From Cystobacterineae bacterium (GTDB lineage: Bacteria > Myxococcota > Myxococcia > Myxococcales > Myxococcaceae), in the NCBI GenBank assembly GCA_009782175.1, contig WRKR01000006.1, positions 1-64,000 of the forward strand: DNA of 64,000 nt, written 5' to 3'. The notes beneath the pieces were generated by a model. The model saw only the letters and a list, made by a program, of their open reading frames with translations. It searched no databases and was not told the DNA's origin. The translations under genes and the position numbers were made by a program. Shown here piece after piece: positions 16,989 through 25,309 of this stretch (position 1 is the stretch's first letter; each line of letters opens with the position of its first letter).

Positions 16989-17378
16989 ATGCACTCAAAA
17001 CATTTTTATTCGCCTGTATATATGACCATCGACTTCACTTGTCATAAATGCGGAGGCAGCTTTGAGCTCGATATTCCAGATCTCATCGACGGAAACGAGA
17101 AAATGGAATGCCCTCATTGCGATGCAAGCCCAACCCCCACAATGGCCAATGACTTCATCGCCGCCATTTCTGACTTGCGCTCCCAAATTGCCATGCTCTC
17201 CAAAAAATTCGAGCTCTCCCTCTCTATGGCAACAGAAGAGCTGGATGAGCCCGCTGAGGATTTTGACGACGACGAGGATGAAGACGAGGAGGAGGATGAC
17301 TTTGAGGATGAGGATGAGGATGAGCTCGATGATGATTTTGAGGATGAGCTCGACGACGACGAAAACGAAGAAGACTAA
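16989..17378 (+). CDS. Small zinc-ribbon protein with acidic tail
   Basis: 129 aa. A CHKC...CPHC zinc ribbon near residues 18-45 is followed by a short helical segment (ISDLRSQIAMLSKKFELS) and then about 50 residues almost entirely Asp and Glu. The function is not recognised. The shape suggests a nucleic-acid or protein binder with a charged mimic tail. The start is uncertain: ATG 16989 or the in-frame ATG 17022, which would place the ribbon at the very N-terminus as in similar small ribbons. Neither has a strong ribosome site. A clear terminator lies 158 nt downstream. Confidence 0.75.
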   Translation: MHSKHFYSPVYMTIDFTCHKCGGSFELDIPDLIDGNEKMECPHCDASPTPTMANDFIAAISDLRSQIAMLSKKFELSLSMATEELDEPAEDFDDDEDEDEEEDDFEDEDEDELDDDFEDELDDDENEED

Positions 17379-18083: not shown

Positions 18084-19016
18084 TTATAGCTTTACACTGT
18101 CAACGGTTTTCTTCACAGAAGCAAAAGACTTAGCCAATTCTCTTTTCTCCAGGTCGTCTAATTTTATTTCCAAAACTTTTTCAATGCCCCCTGCCCCAAT
18201 CTGTGCGGGGACACCAAAGAAATAGCCGGAAATGCCATATTCGCCTTCCAATAAAACCGCACAAGGCAAAACCCGCTTGCGGTCTAACAAATAACTCTCC
18301 GCCATCGCTATGGCCGAAGCCGCCGGCCCAAAATAGGCTGAGCCCGTTTTATAGAGGCCCACCAGCTCTGCTCCACCTTCGCGCGTGCGCTTCACAATGG
18401 CATCCAACTTGTCTTGGGGAAGCAGCTCACACAAAGGTACACCGCCCACTGTGCTGTGGCGCAACAACGGAACCATGTCGTCACCGTGTCCACCCAAAAC
18501 CAGCGCGTCTATGTCGCGGATGGAGCAGCCAAGGGCCTGGGCAACAAAGCATTTAAAGCGGGAAGTATCCAAAACACCCGCCATGCCTGCCACCTGTTGC
18601 TTTTTCTGGCCCGCAATTTTGTGCAAGGCAAACACCATCGCATCCAAGGGGTTGGCAATGTTAATGACAAAGGCTTCTGGGCATTGCGTCTGAATGTTGG
18701 AAGCCACCTCCCTTATAATTTTGAGGTTAATCTCCAACAAGTCTTCCCGGCTCATGCCCGGCTTGCGCGGAACTCCCGCTGTTATAATAACCACATCCGC
18801 GCCGGCCAAATCCGCTGGGTTTGTTGAGCCCATGCAGCGGCAGTCATACCCATCCACCGCCGCCAGCTGGTTAATGTCCAAAGCCTTGCCCTTCACCACA
18901 CCCTCTGCCGCGGGAATGTCGAAAATAACCACATCGCCCAATGACTTTTGAATGGAAAGCAATGCCAAGTTGCCGCCAATTTGTCCGCCCCCAATAAGCG
19001 CAATTTTTTTCTTCAT
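18084..19016 (-). CDS. mdh: Malate dehydrogenase (LDH-like type)
   Basis: 310 aa. The Rossmann NAD motif is [11 protein letters not shown], and the mobile loop is [11 protein letters not shown], whose Arg marks malate/oxaloacetate rather than lactate specificity. It has NPLDAMV, the Arg in DTSRFK and the catalytic His in LGGHGDDMV. It interconverts malate and oxaloacetate in the TCA cycle. GAGGATG precedes the ATG. It follows the isocitrate dehydrogenase gene by 15 nt on the same strand, so two TCA enzymes are probably co-transcribed. Confidence 0.96.
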
Positions 19017-19031
19017 TTGAGCATCCTCGCT

Positions 19032-20327
19032 TTACATGTTTTTGATGATAGCCTGACCAAACTCGCTGCACTTTACTTCTACTACGGTGGACTGAGTTTC
19101 CTGTCGCATCAGCCGCGCAAAGTCATAAGTAACCGTCTTCTGAGAGATGGCTGCATCCATTCCTCGCAAAATATTATCGGCTGCCTCATTCCAACCCAAA
19201 TGCCTCAACATCATCTCCGCAGACAAAATAACGGAGCCTGGGTTGACTTTGTCCAGGTCGGCATATTTAGGGGCTGTCCCATGCGTCGCTTCAAATATGG
19301 CATGTCCTGTTTTGTAGTTAATGTTGCCCCCCGGAGCTATGCCTATGCCTCCTACCTGGGCCGCCAATGCATCCGACAAATAGTCACCATTCAAATTTAA
19401 TGTCGCAATAACATCAAACTCCTCAGGGCGCGTCAATATTTGCTGAAGCGTAATGTCCGCAATGGCATCCTTCACCAACAGCTTCCCTTGAGACAAAGCC
19501 TCCTTCTGCGCTGCATTGGCCGCAGCTTCACCCTTTTCAGCTTTTATCTTCTCCCACTCTTGCCATCCAAATGTCTTATCCGCAAATTCCTCCTCCGCCA
19601 AGGCATAGCCACAACGCATAAAGGCCCCTTCCGTAAACTTCATAATATTGCCCTTGTGCACCAAAGTAACACTTTTGCGCTTTTGCCTCAGGGCATATTC
19701 AATGGCCGCGCGAATCAGCCTCTTGGAGCCTTCTTGGGAGACAGGCTTTATGCCCAGCCCCACCTCCTGAGGGAAACGGATTTTGGAAAAGTCCGCGGGG
19801 AATTCCTTTTGCAAAAAAGAGAGCAGCTTCTGGCTCGCTTCGCTGCCGCCCTCATATTCAATCCCCGCATAAATGTCCTCCGTGTTTTCACGGAATATCA
19901 CCATGTCCACCTTCTCCGGCGCCCTGACGGGAGAGGGAACGCCTTTAAAATAGCGAACGGGCCGCAAGCACACATAGAGGTCCAACAGCTGCCTTAAGGC
20001 AACATTCAGCGAGCGGATGCCCCCACCAATGGGCGTTGTTAAGGGGCCCTTAATCCCCACCAAATATTCACGAAAGGCTTGCACCGTCTCCTCAGGAAGC
20101 CAATTGCCCACAGCCTTAAAGGCTTTTTCTCCTGCCAAAACTTCTTTCCAAACAATCTTCTTCTTCCCGTGGTATGCCCGCTCAACAGCAGCATCAATAA
20201 CGGCAACGGAGGCCCGCCAAATATCTCTACCTGTTCCATCCCCCTCAATGAAAGGTATAATAGGAAAATCCGGCACCCAAAGTTTTCCTTCTCTGAGCGT
20301 TATTTTCTCCCCATTTGTCGATGACAT
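19032..20327 (-). CDS. icd: Isocitrate dehydrogenase (NADP type)
   Basis: 431 aa. It matches E. coli Icd closely, with the substrate motif [13 protein letters not shown] (phosphorylatable Ser position), [23 protein letters not shown], the catalytic region [15 protein letters not shown] and the cofactor block THGTAPKYA. It oxidises isocitrate to 2-oxoglutarate. ATG 20327 is chosen because GGAG lies 7 nt upstream. An in-frame ATG five codons upstream lacks a ribosome site. It begins the icd-mdh pair. Confidence 0.96.
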
Positions 20328-20419
20328 GTTTGTAGACTCCATTATGAGAAAACCGTTGTTTGTTGTCTGCCCTCTATGTTGTTCCCACAACAAGAAATAA
20401 AACCCCAGCAGAAAATTCA

Positions 20420-20438
20420 GCAGTCCATAAAAGACTGC
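20420..20438 (+). promoter_or_regulatory. Small inverted repeat upstream of the FHA regulator gene
   Basis: GCAGTC-CATAAAA-GACTGC is followed by GTTTTGTTGTTT, 42 nt before the ATG of the FHA regulator. It could be an attenuator-type hairpin or an operator in the icd/FHA divergent promoter region. Only the inverted repeat is seen. Confidence 0.3.
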
Positions 20439-20480
20439 GTTTTGTTGTTTACTCTCAATTGAAAGAGCTCTTCAACTCCA

Positions 20481-21815
20481 ATGACGCAAGGCACAGAACC
20501 TATACAACATTTAGAAACACTTCTTCGTTATGATAGAACCACAGGTACCTTGCGCGAGCGGCGCTATCAAATCGCCGTCATCGCAGGGCCGGATACAGGG
20601 CGCCTCGCTTATATTGACGGCCGCCTCACGGTGGGCAGCCGCCCCGGTGTAGGACTTCGCCTGAAAGACACCACCGTCTCCAGAAACCATTTTGAGCTTC
20701 TGGCTAAACCTGAAGGCGTCCTCATTCGAGACTTGGAGTCTACCAACGGAACTTGGCTGGCGGGCACACGCATCCGTGAGGTCGTCGTCGAAGACGAAGC
20801 CGTGGTTACGGTGGGGAAAACCAGCCTGCGCATCTCCATCCAAGAGGAAAACCTTGGGCAACCTAAGGCCACTTCCTCTTTTGGAAAAATACTCGGCAGC
20901 TGCCCCGCCATGCAATCCATGTTCGGCCTCTTAGAGCGCGTCTCCAAAGCCTCTTCAACCGTTTTGCTCACCGGAGAGGCGGGTGTGGGCAAAAGCTTGC
21001 TGGCCCAATCCATCCACGAAAACAGTGCCAGGGCGAACAAACCCTTCGTCGTCTTCCATTGCGCAGGCATGCCCACCGAAGAAATAGAGGCTGAGTTGTT
21101 TGGTTGTATAGAGTCCCCCACCCAAAGCCCCAAAGCAGGCGCTTTTTTGAATGCAGCCAGTGGCACCCTCTATTTAAACAACATTGATGCTTTGCCCCAC
21201 AATACACAACAGCGGCTGCTCAACGTTTTTGAAAGCGGCAACCTCCAAAGGCTTGGCGCGGACAAACCCCAGCGCGTGGATGTTCGCATCATCGCCTCCA
21301 CCCATAAGGACTTGGAAGAAGAAGCCGCTCAAGGACGCTTCTCCCAGGAGTTGCTCTATCAGCTGGCTGTCATCCGCGTTCAAATTCCACCTCTGCGAGA
21401 GCGCCTGGAGGACATTCCTCTGCTCGCTCAAGAGTTTGTTCGCCTCATGGGGCGCGGTGACTTTGAGTTGCCTCGCGGACTCATGGCGCGCTTTGGCGCT
21501 TATGACTGGCCCGGCAACGTCCAGGAGCTGCGCAACTTGGTTGAACGTGCCTTGGCTGGCGTGGATGCGGACCCCCTGCCCGGACAGGCCGCAGCGCGAA
21601 AACTTCCGCGTACGCCTGAGGCTGAAGCCATGACGGAGCTGCCTTTCAAAGAGGCCAAGGAGCGTCTGGTGGACTCCTTTACGCGTGAATATCTCATGTC
21701 CCTCTATGAGCGTTGCGAAGGCAATATTTCACGCATGGCACGAGAGGCAGGCATCGCCCGAAATTATGTCCATAGGCTGGTCACCAAATATGGACTTAAA
21801 CCTGCACAGGAATAA
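20481..21815 (+). CDS. FHA plus degenerate AAA+ (sigma-54-activator-like) regulator with Fis HTH
   Basis: 444 aa. The FHA domain spans about 25-120 (GSRP, VSRNH, STNGTW: phosphothreonine-binding residues kept). An AAA+ domain of the NtrC type spans about 135-360, and a Fis-type HTH lies at the C-terminus (CEGNISRMAREAGIARNYVHRL). Walker A is intact (GEAGVGKS, Lys171). However, the GAFTGA loop that contacts sigma-54 is absent (ELFGC is followed by SPTQSPKAGAF), the Walker B Asp-Glu is Asn-Asn (YLNNID), and the arginine-finger segment reads FSQELLYQL where activators have FREDLYYRL. It probably cannot hydrolyse ATP or activate sigma-54 and may act as a phospho-dependent DNA-binding repressor or scaffold. 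That role is inference. Confidence 0.88.
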   Translation: MTQGTEPIQHLETLLRYDRTTGTLRERRYQIAVIAGPDTGRLAYIDGRLTVGSRPGVGLRLKDTTVSRNHFELLAKPEGVLIRDLESTNGTWLAGTRIREVVVEDEAVVTVGKTSLRISIQEENLGQPKATSSFGKILGSCPAMQSMFGLLERVSKASSTVLLTGEAGVGKSLLAQSIHENSARANKPFVVFHCAGMPTEEIEAELFGCIESPTQSPKAGAFLNAASGTLYLNNIDALPHNTQQRLLNVFESGNLQRLGADKPQRVDVRIIASTHKDLEEEAAQGRFSQELLYQLAVIRVQIPPLRERLEDIPLLAQEFVRLMGRGDFELPRGLMARFGAYDWPGNVQELRNLVERALAGVDADPLPGQAAARKLPRTPEAEAMTELPFKEAKERLVDSFTREYLMSLYERCEGNISRMAREAGIARNYVHRLVTKYGLKPAQE

Positions 21816-24442: not shown

Positions 24443-25309
24443 CTATCGCCTCAACCTTCGCCACAACACCAGCACTAAGCCAGATGCCAAACCCAAAGTG
24501 CCACCCGGCGCCGCAGCACAACCTGCTGATTTGCTGTCCTGAAAAAAGGAAGAAGAAGAAAGGTCGGCAGATTCACCGCACCCCTGGGCAGCACGGCCTT
24601 GGGGATAGGCCTCACAAACAAACTGTGCTGAATCCCAATCCAGAGCATGGTCTGCCACCACCCCGGAGGACAAGGTTGGGCTCATGACAGAGCCCGGTTT
24701 CGTGCTGTGGCCAAGCCCCAGCAGATGGCCAATTTCATGCACCATCACCGCCTCTAAATCCGCAAAAAAACAATTTTTGCAAGGCACATTCTCATCCACC
24801 GCATAGCTGTAGTTGCTGTTAATCTCAATGTCCGCATTCAAAATCTGCCCCGTGTCAGAACGGAAAGTCGTCAACGTAACGGCCAAGGCGGACTCGTCAT
24901 ATTGCCAACAATTATATATGTCACCACAGTCGTTGTTTTTCCAACAAGCCTCTGTCGCCGGCACTTTCTGCTGACAATCACCCCCTCGAAACAGAATGAG
25001 GTTCTCTTTCTCCCCCTTGGACAAATAATTTGTATTCGTTGAGGAAGTGGCCTCCAACTCCATAAAACGCAAACTTCCACACGCATCCATCTGCGCTTGC
25101 CAAACCCCAAAAGCACGTTGAATGCTGGACAGAGAGCCAGGCAGCGTCGCCTCTAATTGGTTGTGAGGTGTCCATTCCAGAGAAGCATTCCCCGGCCACC
25201 AGAGGCATTGCCCCGTCGAGGTGCGCATGCGAGCATAGTCCGCTGTCGCCTCGCTGCTCTCTTGAGAGAAAGCAAAGCCTGCCAACACCAACAAAACAGC
25301 AAGGCTCAT
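24443..25309 (-). CDS. Secreted matrixin-like zinc metalloprotease with MYXO-CTERM-like tail
   Basis: 288 aa. A signal peptide ([15 protein letters not shown]) precedes a catalytic region with [11 protein letters not shown], the HExxHxxGxxH metzincin motif, and the Met-turn in SVMSP, typical of M10 matrixins. The C-terminus has a Gly-Cys followed by a hydrophobic helix and WRRLRR. This layout resembles the MYXO-CTERM surface-sorting signal of myxobacteria. It probably cleaves extracellular protein while attached to the cell surface. The ATG overlaps the upstream TGA (ATGA). Confidence 0.85.

Follow-up and report, generated by a model that had tools for sequence, protein, structure and literature searches.

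FHA-type sigma-54 enhancer-binding proteins (EBPs) form a class in myxobacteria and are reportedly the subject of a study by Jelsbak et al. that appeared in PNAS in 2005. No paper came up in a literature search on GAFTGA-bearing FHA EBPs of Myxococcus, and among the matches listed for related searches none concerned an FHA-EBP with a dead motor, as far as titles and the opening parts of abstracts tell. Relatives lacking the GAFTGA loop have been described, however. According to passages of two papers, the NtrC of Caulobacter, which is without GAFTGA, serves as both activator and repressor at sigma-70 promoters and needs its Walker A and Walker B residues for growth on ammonium, while the NtrC of R. 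capsulatus, likewise GAFTGA-less and active at sigma-70 promoters, requires ATP binding and not hydrolysis (PMC10274813; PMC12421884). VpsR of Vibrio cholerae, a bEBP relative that also lacks GAFTGA, operates at sigma-70 promoters and does not require ATP, as stated in passages of PMC10274813; titles in the reference list of the same paper indicate that it works with c-di-GMP.

The window analyzed here, a stretch of 64,000 nucleotides from a Cystobacterineae bacterium of the Myxococcaceae, belongs to a 2.7-Mb draft genome that is 99.95% complete (G000). It carries an ATG-initiated gene with the following layout, in which position 193 bears our own assignment.

20481..21815, plus strand: FHA / degenerate AAA+ / Fis-HTH regulator of 444 aa (ORF and Pfam; frame intact in three species of the genus)
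20577..20837, plus strand: FHA domain, residues 33-119 (Pfam PF16697 / PF00498; phosphothreonine-pocket-type residues S67, R68, H70 and N89 kept)
20973..20996, plus strand: Walker A GEAGVGKS, residues 165-172, kept
21057..21059, plus strand: position 193, presumed switch Asn/Asp residue, with His here in place of the family's Asp (alignment)
21105..21137, plus strand: L1 loop, residues 209-219, with CIESPTQSPKA replacing the GAFTGA region (alignment; three residues shorter than in orthologues)
21177..21182, plus strand: Walker B, Asp-Glu changed to Asn-Asn (N233, N234; alignment)
21342..21362, plus strand: arginine fingers lost, R288 to S and R294 to Q
21393..21566, plus strand: AAA+ lid subdomain, residues 305-362, strongly conserved (96.6-98.3% identity within the genus)
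21522..21524, plus strand: sensor II, Arg changed to Gln (Q348)
21639..21800, plus strand: C-terminal Fis-type HTH, residues 387-440, identical in three same-genus proteins

Profile searches place the protein among relatives of sigma-54 activators. The Pfam model Sigma54_activat matches it with 155 bits (cut-off, 20.2), and Pfam also assigns the AAA lid and an FHA domain, the latter above its cut-off. HTH_8 (Fis) remains below threshold, at 14.3 bits against 22; the C-terminal HTH region is colinear with the HTH of intact orthologues at 74-85% identity, so the Fis-HTH is clear by homology. The features that define a sigma-54-dependent EBP of the NtrC family are thus divided: the Sigma54_activat profile, Walker A and the Fis-type HTH are present, and the GAFTGA loop, the Walker B Asp-Glu, the arginine fingers and the sensor II Arg are absent. 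The N-terminal FHA domain has the phosphothreonine-pocket residues of an FHA-type myxobacterial EBP, with binding predicted from sequence, and the missing GAFTGA is a trait shared with the GAFTGA-less bEBPs of sigma-70 promoters.

The losses were assessed against 38 homologue loci from other genera, drawn from the best among the matches listed, with some genomes contributing two or three loci; 17 of the 38 are orthologues divergently linked to icd. Motif names other than that of position 193 are used as we take them to apply, from recall or from passages of PMC7175178. The Walker A Lys (K171) is shared by 38/38 homologues and by 3/3 proteins of the genus, and T274, in the sensor I region, is likewise kept. 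Walker B reads LYLNNI here, with Asp and Glu each occurring in 38/38 other-genus homologues; across the genus the pair is NN (window), NA (LYLNAI) or NE (LYLNEI), the last keeping its Glu. After ELFG, the protein continues with CIESPTQSPK, whereas orthologues have, for example, HVRGAFTGAISDR, which is three residues longer, and a loop of the form G[AS]F[TS][GN]A occurs in all 38 homologues (GAFTNA in L113). The arginine-finger segment, FRRDLYYRL in most orthologues, has become FSQELLYQL: R288 and R294, each found in 38/38 homologues, are Ser and Gln in all three same-genus proteins. Two further losses were not listed in the sequence-only reading. At sensor II, GNVRELRN is replaced by GNVQELRN (R348 in 38/38 homologues, Gln in 3/3 of the genus), and at position 193 an Asp that is invariant in 37 homologues is His, Arg and His across the genus. 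We take position 193 to be the switch Asn/Asp residue, the "switch asparagine" having been placed by the order of motifs in a figure legend of PMC7175178.

The sequence-only reading had described an AAA+ domain built like that of a sigma-54 activator, with Walker A retained and the Walker B Asp-Glu, the GAFTGA loop and the arginine-finger pattern gone, and had called for a family alignment and a structure prediction as checks. All of these observations held up. Misalignment was rejected as an explanation: the same columns are intact in 38/38 homologues, and the lost residues do not reappear in adjacent columns. The joint loss of the Walker B Asp, the L1 loop, the arginine fingers and the sensor II Arg is found in 3/3 genomes of the genus, as opposed to 0/38 other-genus homologues and 0/15 other EBPs of the genus itself. 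In the structure prediction, the AAA+ core was modeled as an EBP fold with block pLDDT values of 74-96; the model is good for the AAA+ region and fair for the HTH, where helices are predicted. The FHA part falls below a pLDDT of 40, we suppose since the majority of alignment rows leave it uncovered. The nearest solved fold identified by Foldseek, and also the best sequence match, is NtrX of Brucella abortus (PDB 5m7n). Both proteins are GAFTGA-less in the alignment, but NtrX, unlike the 444-aa protein, keeps its Walker B (LYLDEV) and its arginine fingers (FREDLFHRL).

Could other residues have replaced the lost ones, leaving an ATPase or a sigma-54 activator? Walker A and T274 are kept, and one orthologue in the genus has the Walker B Glu. 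Moreover, passages of PMC12421884 report that some sigma-54-dependent genes went up in Caulobacter when its GAFTGA-less NtrC carried DNA-binding mutations, which speaks against a simple GAFTGA rule. Nevertheless, six coupling elements are lost, the sigma-54-contacting loop among them, and we regard continued motor function as very unlikely.

Comparison with the described systems underlines how far the change has gone. The protein shares its domain order with the FHA-type myxobacterial EBPs, and other genera of the family have the same icd-linked locus; identity to these orthologues is 55-60% overall, among the matches listed, and they retain, intact, what the genus has lost: the Walker B motif, a GAFTGA-type loop, the arginine fingers and the sensor II Arg. 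As in the NtrC proteins of R. capsulatus and Caulobacter, insofar as the cited passages describe them, GAFTGA was deleted from the L1 loop in a lineage-specific manner while the rest of the regulator was kept. Those proteins are NtrC response regulators without an FHA domain, however, and the 444-aa protein goes beyond what the passages describe for both in the coupling residues lost, since its Walker B Asp, arginine fingers and sensor II Arg are gone as well. VpsR is similar in being an EBP relative without GAFTGA, but it is not known to have an FHA domain. The 444-aa protein can be placed among the "unconventional" bEBPs, and the evolutionary contrast that it offers is unusually clean.

That contrast is seen in a tree of 39 sequences, from which the five other EBPs of the window's own genome, L092 and the truncated L101 were left out. 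The genus lies inside an 18-member orthologue clade with a support of 100, and the remaining 15 members group together with a support of 89. On the stem branch of the genus, the core accumulated 1.30 substitutions per site, compared with 0.36 for the FHA domain, 0.10 for the lid and 0.13 for the HTH; expressed relative to the rest of the orthologue subtree, the stem amounts to 0.96, 0.15, 0.07 and 0.18, respectively. Core and lid are almost equally conserved among 16 other-genus orthologue loci (mean identities of 86.4% and 86.6%), yet genus-to-orthologue identity is 45.0% for the core and 77.0% for the lid. The HTH of the genus shares a mean of 82.6% identity with that of 16 intact orthologues. 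Positions that are invariant in 37 homologues and changed in all three proteins of the genus number 15/45 in the core and 1/15 in the lid (sensor II), as against 0/10 in the FHA domain and 0/7 in the HTH. The same FHA residues S67, H70 and N89 are invariant in 38/38 other-genus homologues and 3/3 proteins of the genus, and R68 is replaced by Gly in 1/38. Ser occupies the site that we equate with the Arg of the G-R pair canonical for FHA domains; across the family this site is Ser, Thr or Lys. No comparable acceleration affected the neighboring icd, for which genus-to-orthologue identity is 77.9% and identity among the 16 orthologue loci 81.6%.

Because the divergence lies in the core alone, replacement of this segment by recombination, or an assembly artefact, had to be considered. 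Some of the best outside matches of the core are indeed not linked to icd (L036/L099, ranked second at 50.6%, and L102 at 48.9%). The top outside match and most of those that follow, however, are icd-linked orthologues at 46-49%, on which ground core replacement was rejected, and three separate genomes agree; we consider a swapped or artefactual core extremely improbable. As judged from the alignment and tree, the best explanation is that the motor was inactivated in the ancestor of a small-genome genus, in a protein that would descend from an ordinary FHA-type sigma-54 activator.

Selection within the genus provides a second view of the same gene. The HTH is 100% identical in the three species at a dS of 0.67-0.82. 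Pairwise dN/dS values, which are rough as dS is near or above 1 in some domains, are 0-0.011 for the HTH, 0.007-0.016 for the lid, 0.043-0.070 for the FHA domain, 0.13-0.27 for the linker and 0.108-0.200 for the core, where the bootstrap upper bound is 0.31. Six pairs with intact motors (five of orthologues and one of other homologues) served as controls. The core exceeds the FHA domain in 3/3 same-genus pairs and falls below it in 5/6 control pairs, two of the six having core values as high as the genus (0.20 and 0.23). What is unusual, then, is that the core evolves faster than the FHA domain within the genus; a core dN/dS of 0.11-0.20 is not extreme by itself. Since the core is still constrained, and two controls are equally high, it may have some other, unnamed role.

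These values also bear on whether the gene is a pseudogene in slow decay, its motor gone and the rest to follow. The loss does fall where genomes are small, at 2.1-2.7 Mb across the genus. A pseudogene was nevertheless rejected, as the frame is open in 3/3 species and dN/dS is 0-0.20 by domain: the HTH is unchanged over the synonymous distance given above, the lid stands at about 0.01, and even the bootstrap bound of the core leaves it far below 1. We deem slow decay highly unlikely. The domain-wise dN/dS values therefore indicate a gene that is maintained; its core would be under relaxed constraint or have a changed purpose, rather than being in free decay.

The genomic background in which this happened is a reduced one. 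Genomes of the genus measure 2.1-2.7 Mb, compared with 3.9-13.8 Mb in the family's other 55 genomes; a literature search on termite-gut Myxococcota and genome reduction yielded nothing on the genus among the matches listed. Each of the three genomes has six strong Sigma54_activat genes (above 140 bits, the rest being below 33 bits), namely the motor-degenerate FHA protein and five EBPs with intact motifs. All 15 of these other EBPs are intact, with loops of GAFTGA, GSFTGA, GAYTGA or GAFTDA; motif strings were extracted by pattern, and one Walker B that the pattern missed was read by eye. Sigma54_activat matches, weak ones included, number 13-15 per genome in the genus, against at least 18-50 in 33 other genomes of the family, where at most about 49 candidates were scored in most genomes, so that the upper figures are minimum values. 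Activators are thus much scarcer in the genus than in its relatives, and even so the motor-degenerate one occurs in all three species. RpoN is full length in G000 and G002, with an RpoN box and a region I, as we identify them, in both. A search of G001, a draft of 94% completeness, with two Pfam domains found no rpoN, and five intact EBPs are present there all the same; the likely reason is incomplete assembly, but that genome may lack sigma-54 itself.

One of the intact EBPs, present in all three genomes (L003, L125 and L126, the last running off a contig end), carries two FHA stretches by Pfam, and it offers a conceivable partner. The degenerate protein might act as a non-catalytic or poisoning subunit in the rings of another EBP, such as this FHA-type L003, and so tune it through mixed oligomers. 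The retention of the lid and of the predicted AAA+ fold, together with the availability of such an FHA-type EBP in every genome, agrees with this, and according to a title in the reference list of PMC12288465, EBPs of myxobacteria work as hetero-oligomers. Changes affect a large part of the core and the two arginine fingers, however, and the best-kept part is the HTH, which favors independent DNA binding; mixed oligomers are in our estimation unlikely, though less so than continued motor function or decay. No specific support emerged for the oligomerisation scaffold put forward in the sequence-only reading, and the loss of the arginine fingers speaks against ordinary ring assembly.

A candidate target is suggested by the neighborhood of the gene.

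20328..20480, no strand: icd / FHA divergent intergenic region, a candidate regulatory site (reading and scan; no sigma-54 consensus)
19032..20327, minus strand: icd (isocitrate dehydrogenase), the divergent neighbor (Pfam Iso_dh; likely ATG at 20327, with a longer TTG-start ORF to 20393)
18084..19016, minus strand: mdh (malate dehydrogenase-like), following icd (Pfam Ldh_1_N/C)

The naming of 18084..19016 as a malate rather than a lactate dehydrogenase is our own choice. Two other genes of the window are recorded here in passing. At 24443-25309 (minus strand), a metalloprotease is encoded that matches the myxosortase-dependent MXAN_2677/MXAN_2678 family with 302 bits (cut-off, 250) and has an anchor-like tail at its C-terminus. 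The small product of 16989-17378 (plus strand) combines an FmdB-like zinc ribbon (20.6 bits, under the cut-off of 31.3) with a long, near-pure Asp/Glu tail.

Divergent icd accompanies the FHA gene in 17/17 other-genus orthologue loci (16 genomes) and in 3/3 loci of the genus, although in L092 it lies about 1.2 kb away. It is adjacent in 0/21 other homologue loci, several of which are on short contigs; L118 has a weak match (33%) at a distance of about 7 kb. One genome (G036) has two intact FHA-EBP copies (L086 and L095), each divergent from an icd of its own; the two icd copies differ, with 76% and 68% identity to that of the window, a pattern suggestive of joint movement of the pair. Linkage and the two-copy genome therefore suggest co-inheritance and make icd a candidate target.

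How the protein would act there is another matter. A scan of the icd/FHA region in 19 of the 20 loci (L092, with its 1.2-kb gap, was left out) found no sigma-54 promoter: each locus peaked at 7 or 8 of 12, a value that shuffles of the same region reach in at least 55% of trials. A sigma-54 role at icd is thus not supported, even for the intact orthologues. A dyad search in the same region of 13 representatives across lineages revealed no convincing shared operator; at most 3/13 have a 4-bp dyad in common, with a shuffled mean of 1.86 and 4% of shuffles reaching 3, and the window is not among these three loci. The dyad TCTCA-N2-TGAGA is present in L080 and L081, from two species of the same genus, and in L086; it occurs exactly at one place in the window's own genome, on another contig, and the copy in the window is imperfect. 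In addition, L080 and L081 share a short tandem duplication, AAATCTTCAACTCCAAT in L080 and a version with a single mismatch in L081, that lies immediately before the start of the FHA gene; the window lacks it. For the window's FHA protein, a role at the icd-mdh promoter that is independent of the motor is possible.

Taken as a whole, the observations are probably best explained by a motor-dead, FHA-gated DNA-binding regulator that would act without ATP hydrolysis. We hold its core element, a retained DNA binder with a dead motor uncoupled from sigma-54, to be very probable. As the sequence shows, the protein lacks the residues for coupling ATP hydrolysis to sigma-54, while the AAA+ fold is predicted to persist; in this scheme it would neither hydrolyze ATP nor contact sigma-54, and would still bind the DNA sites of its orthologues through the Fis HTH. 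The FHA domain would continue to read Ser/Thr phosphorylation, and phosphorylation may in turn alter the DNA-bound oligomer. Signals of this kind are probably available, as the 2.7-Mb genome (G000) has 27 kinase-domain matches above the Pfam cut-off, at least some of which are pieces of one protein. The regulator would then act as a repressor or in a sigma-70-type mode, to which we assign an even chance, possibly at the divergent icd-mdh promoter.

The proposals of the sequence-only reading can be judged in this light. Its expectation that the protein does not remodel sigma-54 holoenzyme finds good support in the sequence, as the six coupling elements were lost together and specifically in the genus while the FHA domain, lid and HTH stayed strongly constrained. 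Binding of phospho-partners is predicted in part, its support being the conserved FHA residues S67, R68, H70 and N89, with Ser in place of the G-R pair Arg. Binding of ATP, for which the retained Walker A Lys argues, becomes doubtful with the sensor II Arg lost. The suggested phospho-switched repressor is a plausible candidate role.

A more speculative possibility, which we rate as rather unlikely, is that the ancestor had two jobs, serving as a motor for sigma-54 promoters elsewhere and exerting motor-independent control over the co-inherited icd-mdh promoter, and that the genus kept only the second. If this model is true, the protein would be a regulator that works independently of ATP, is gated by phosphothreonine and links the TCA cycle to signaling by Ser/Thr kinases.

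The case also carries a warning for surveys, since profile-based counts of sigma-54 activators may include proteins unable to activate sigma-54 that nonetheless score far above the cut-off, as here. More broadly, it amounts to a natural separation-of-function experiment: the icd-linked orthologues keep the sigma-54 motor, and the genus dropped it with the DNA-binding end fixed. The action of an EBP without its motor thereby becomes testable, as does the possibility that certain EBPs of myxobacteria have, in addition, a mode of action for which the motor is not needed.
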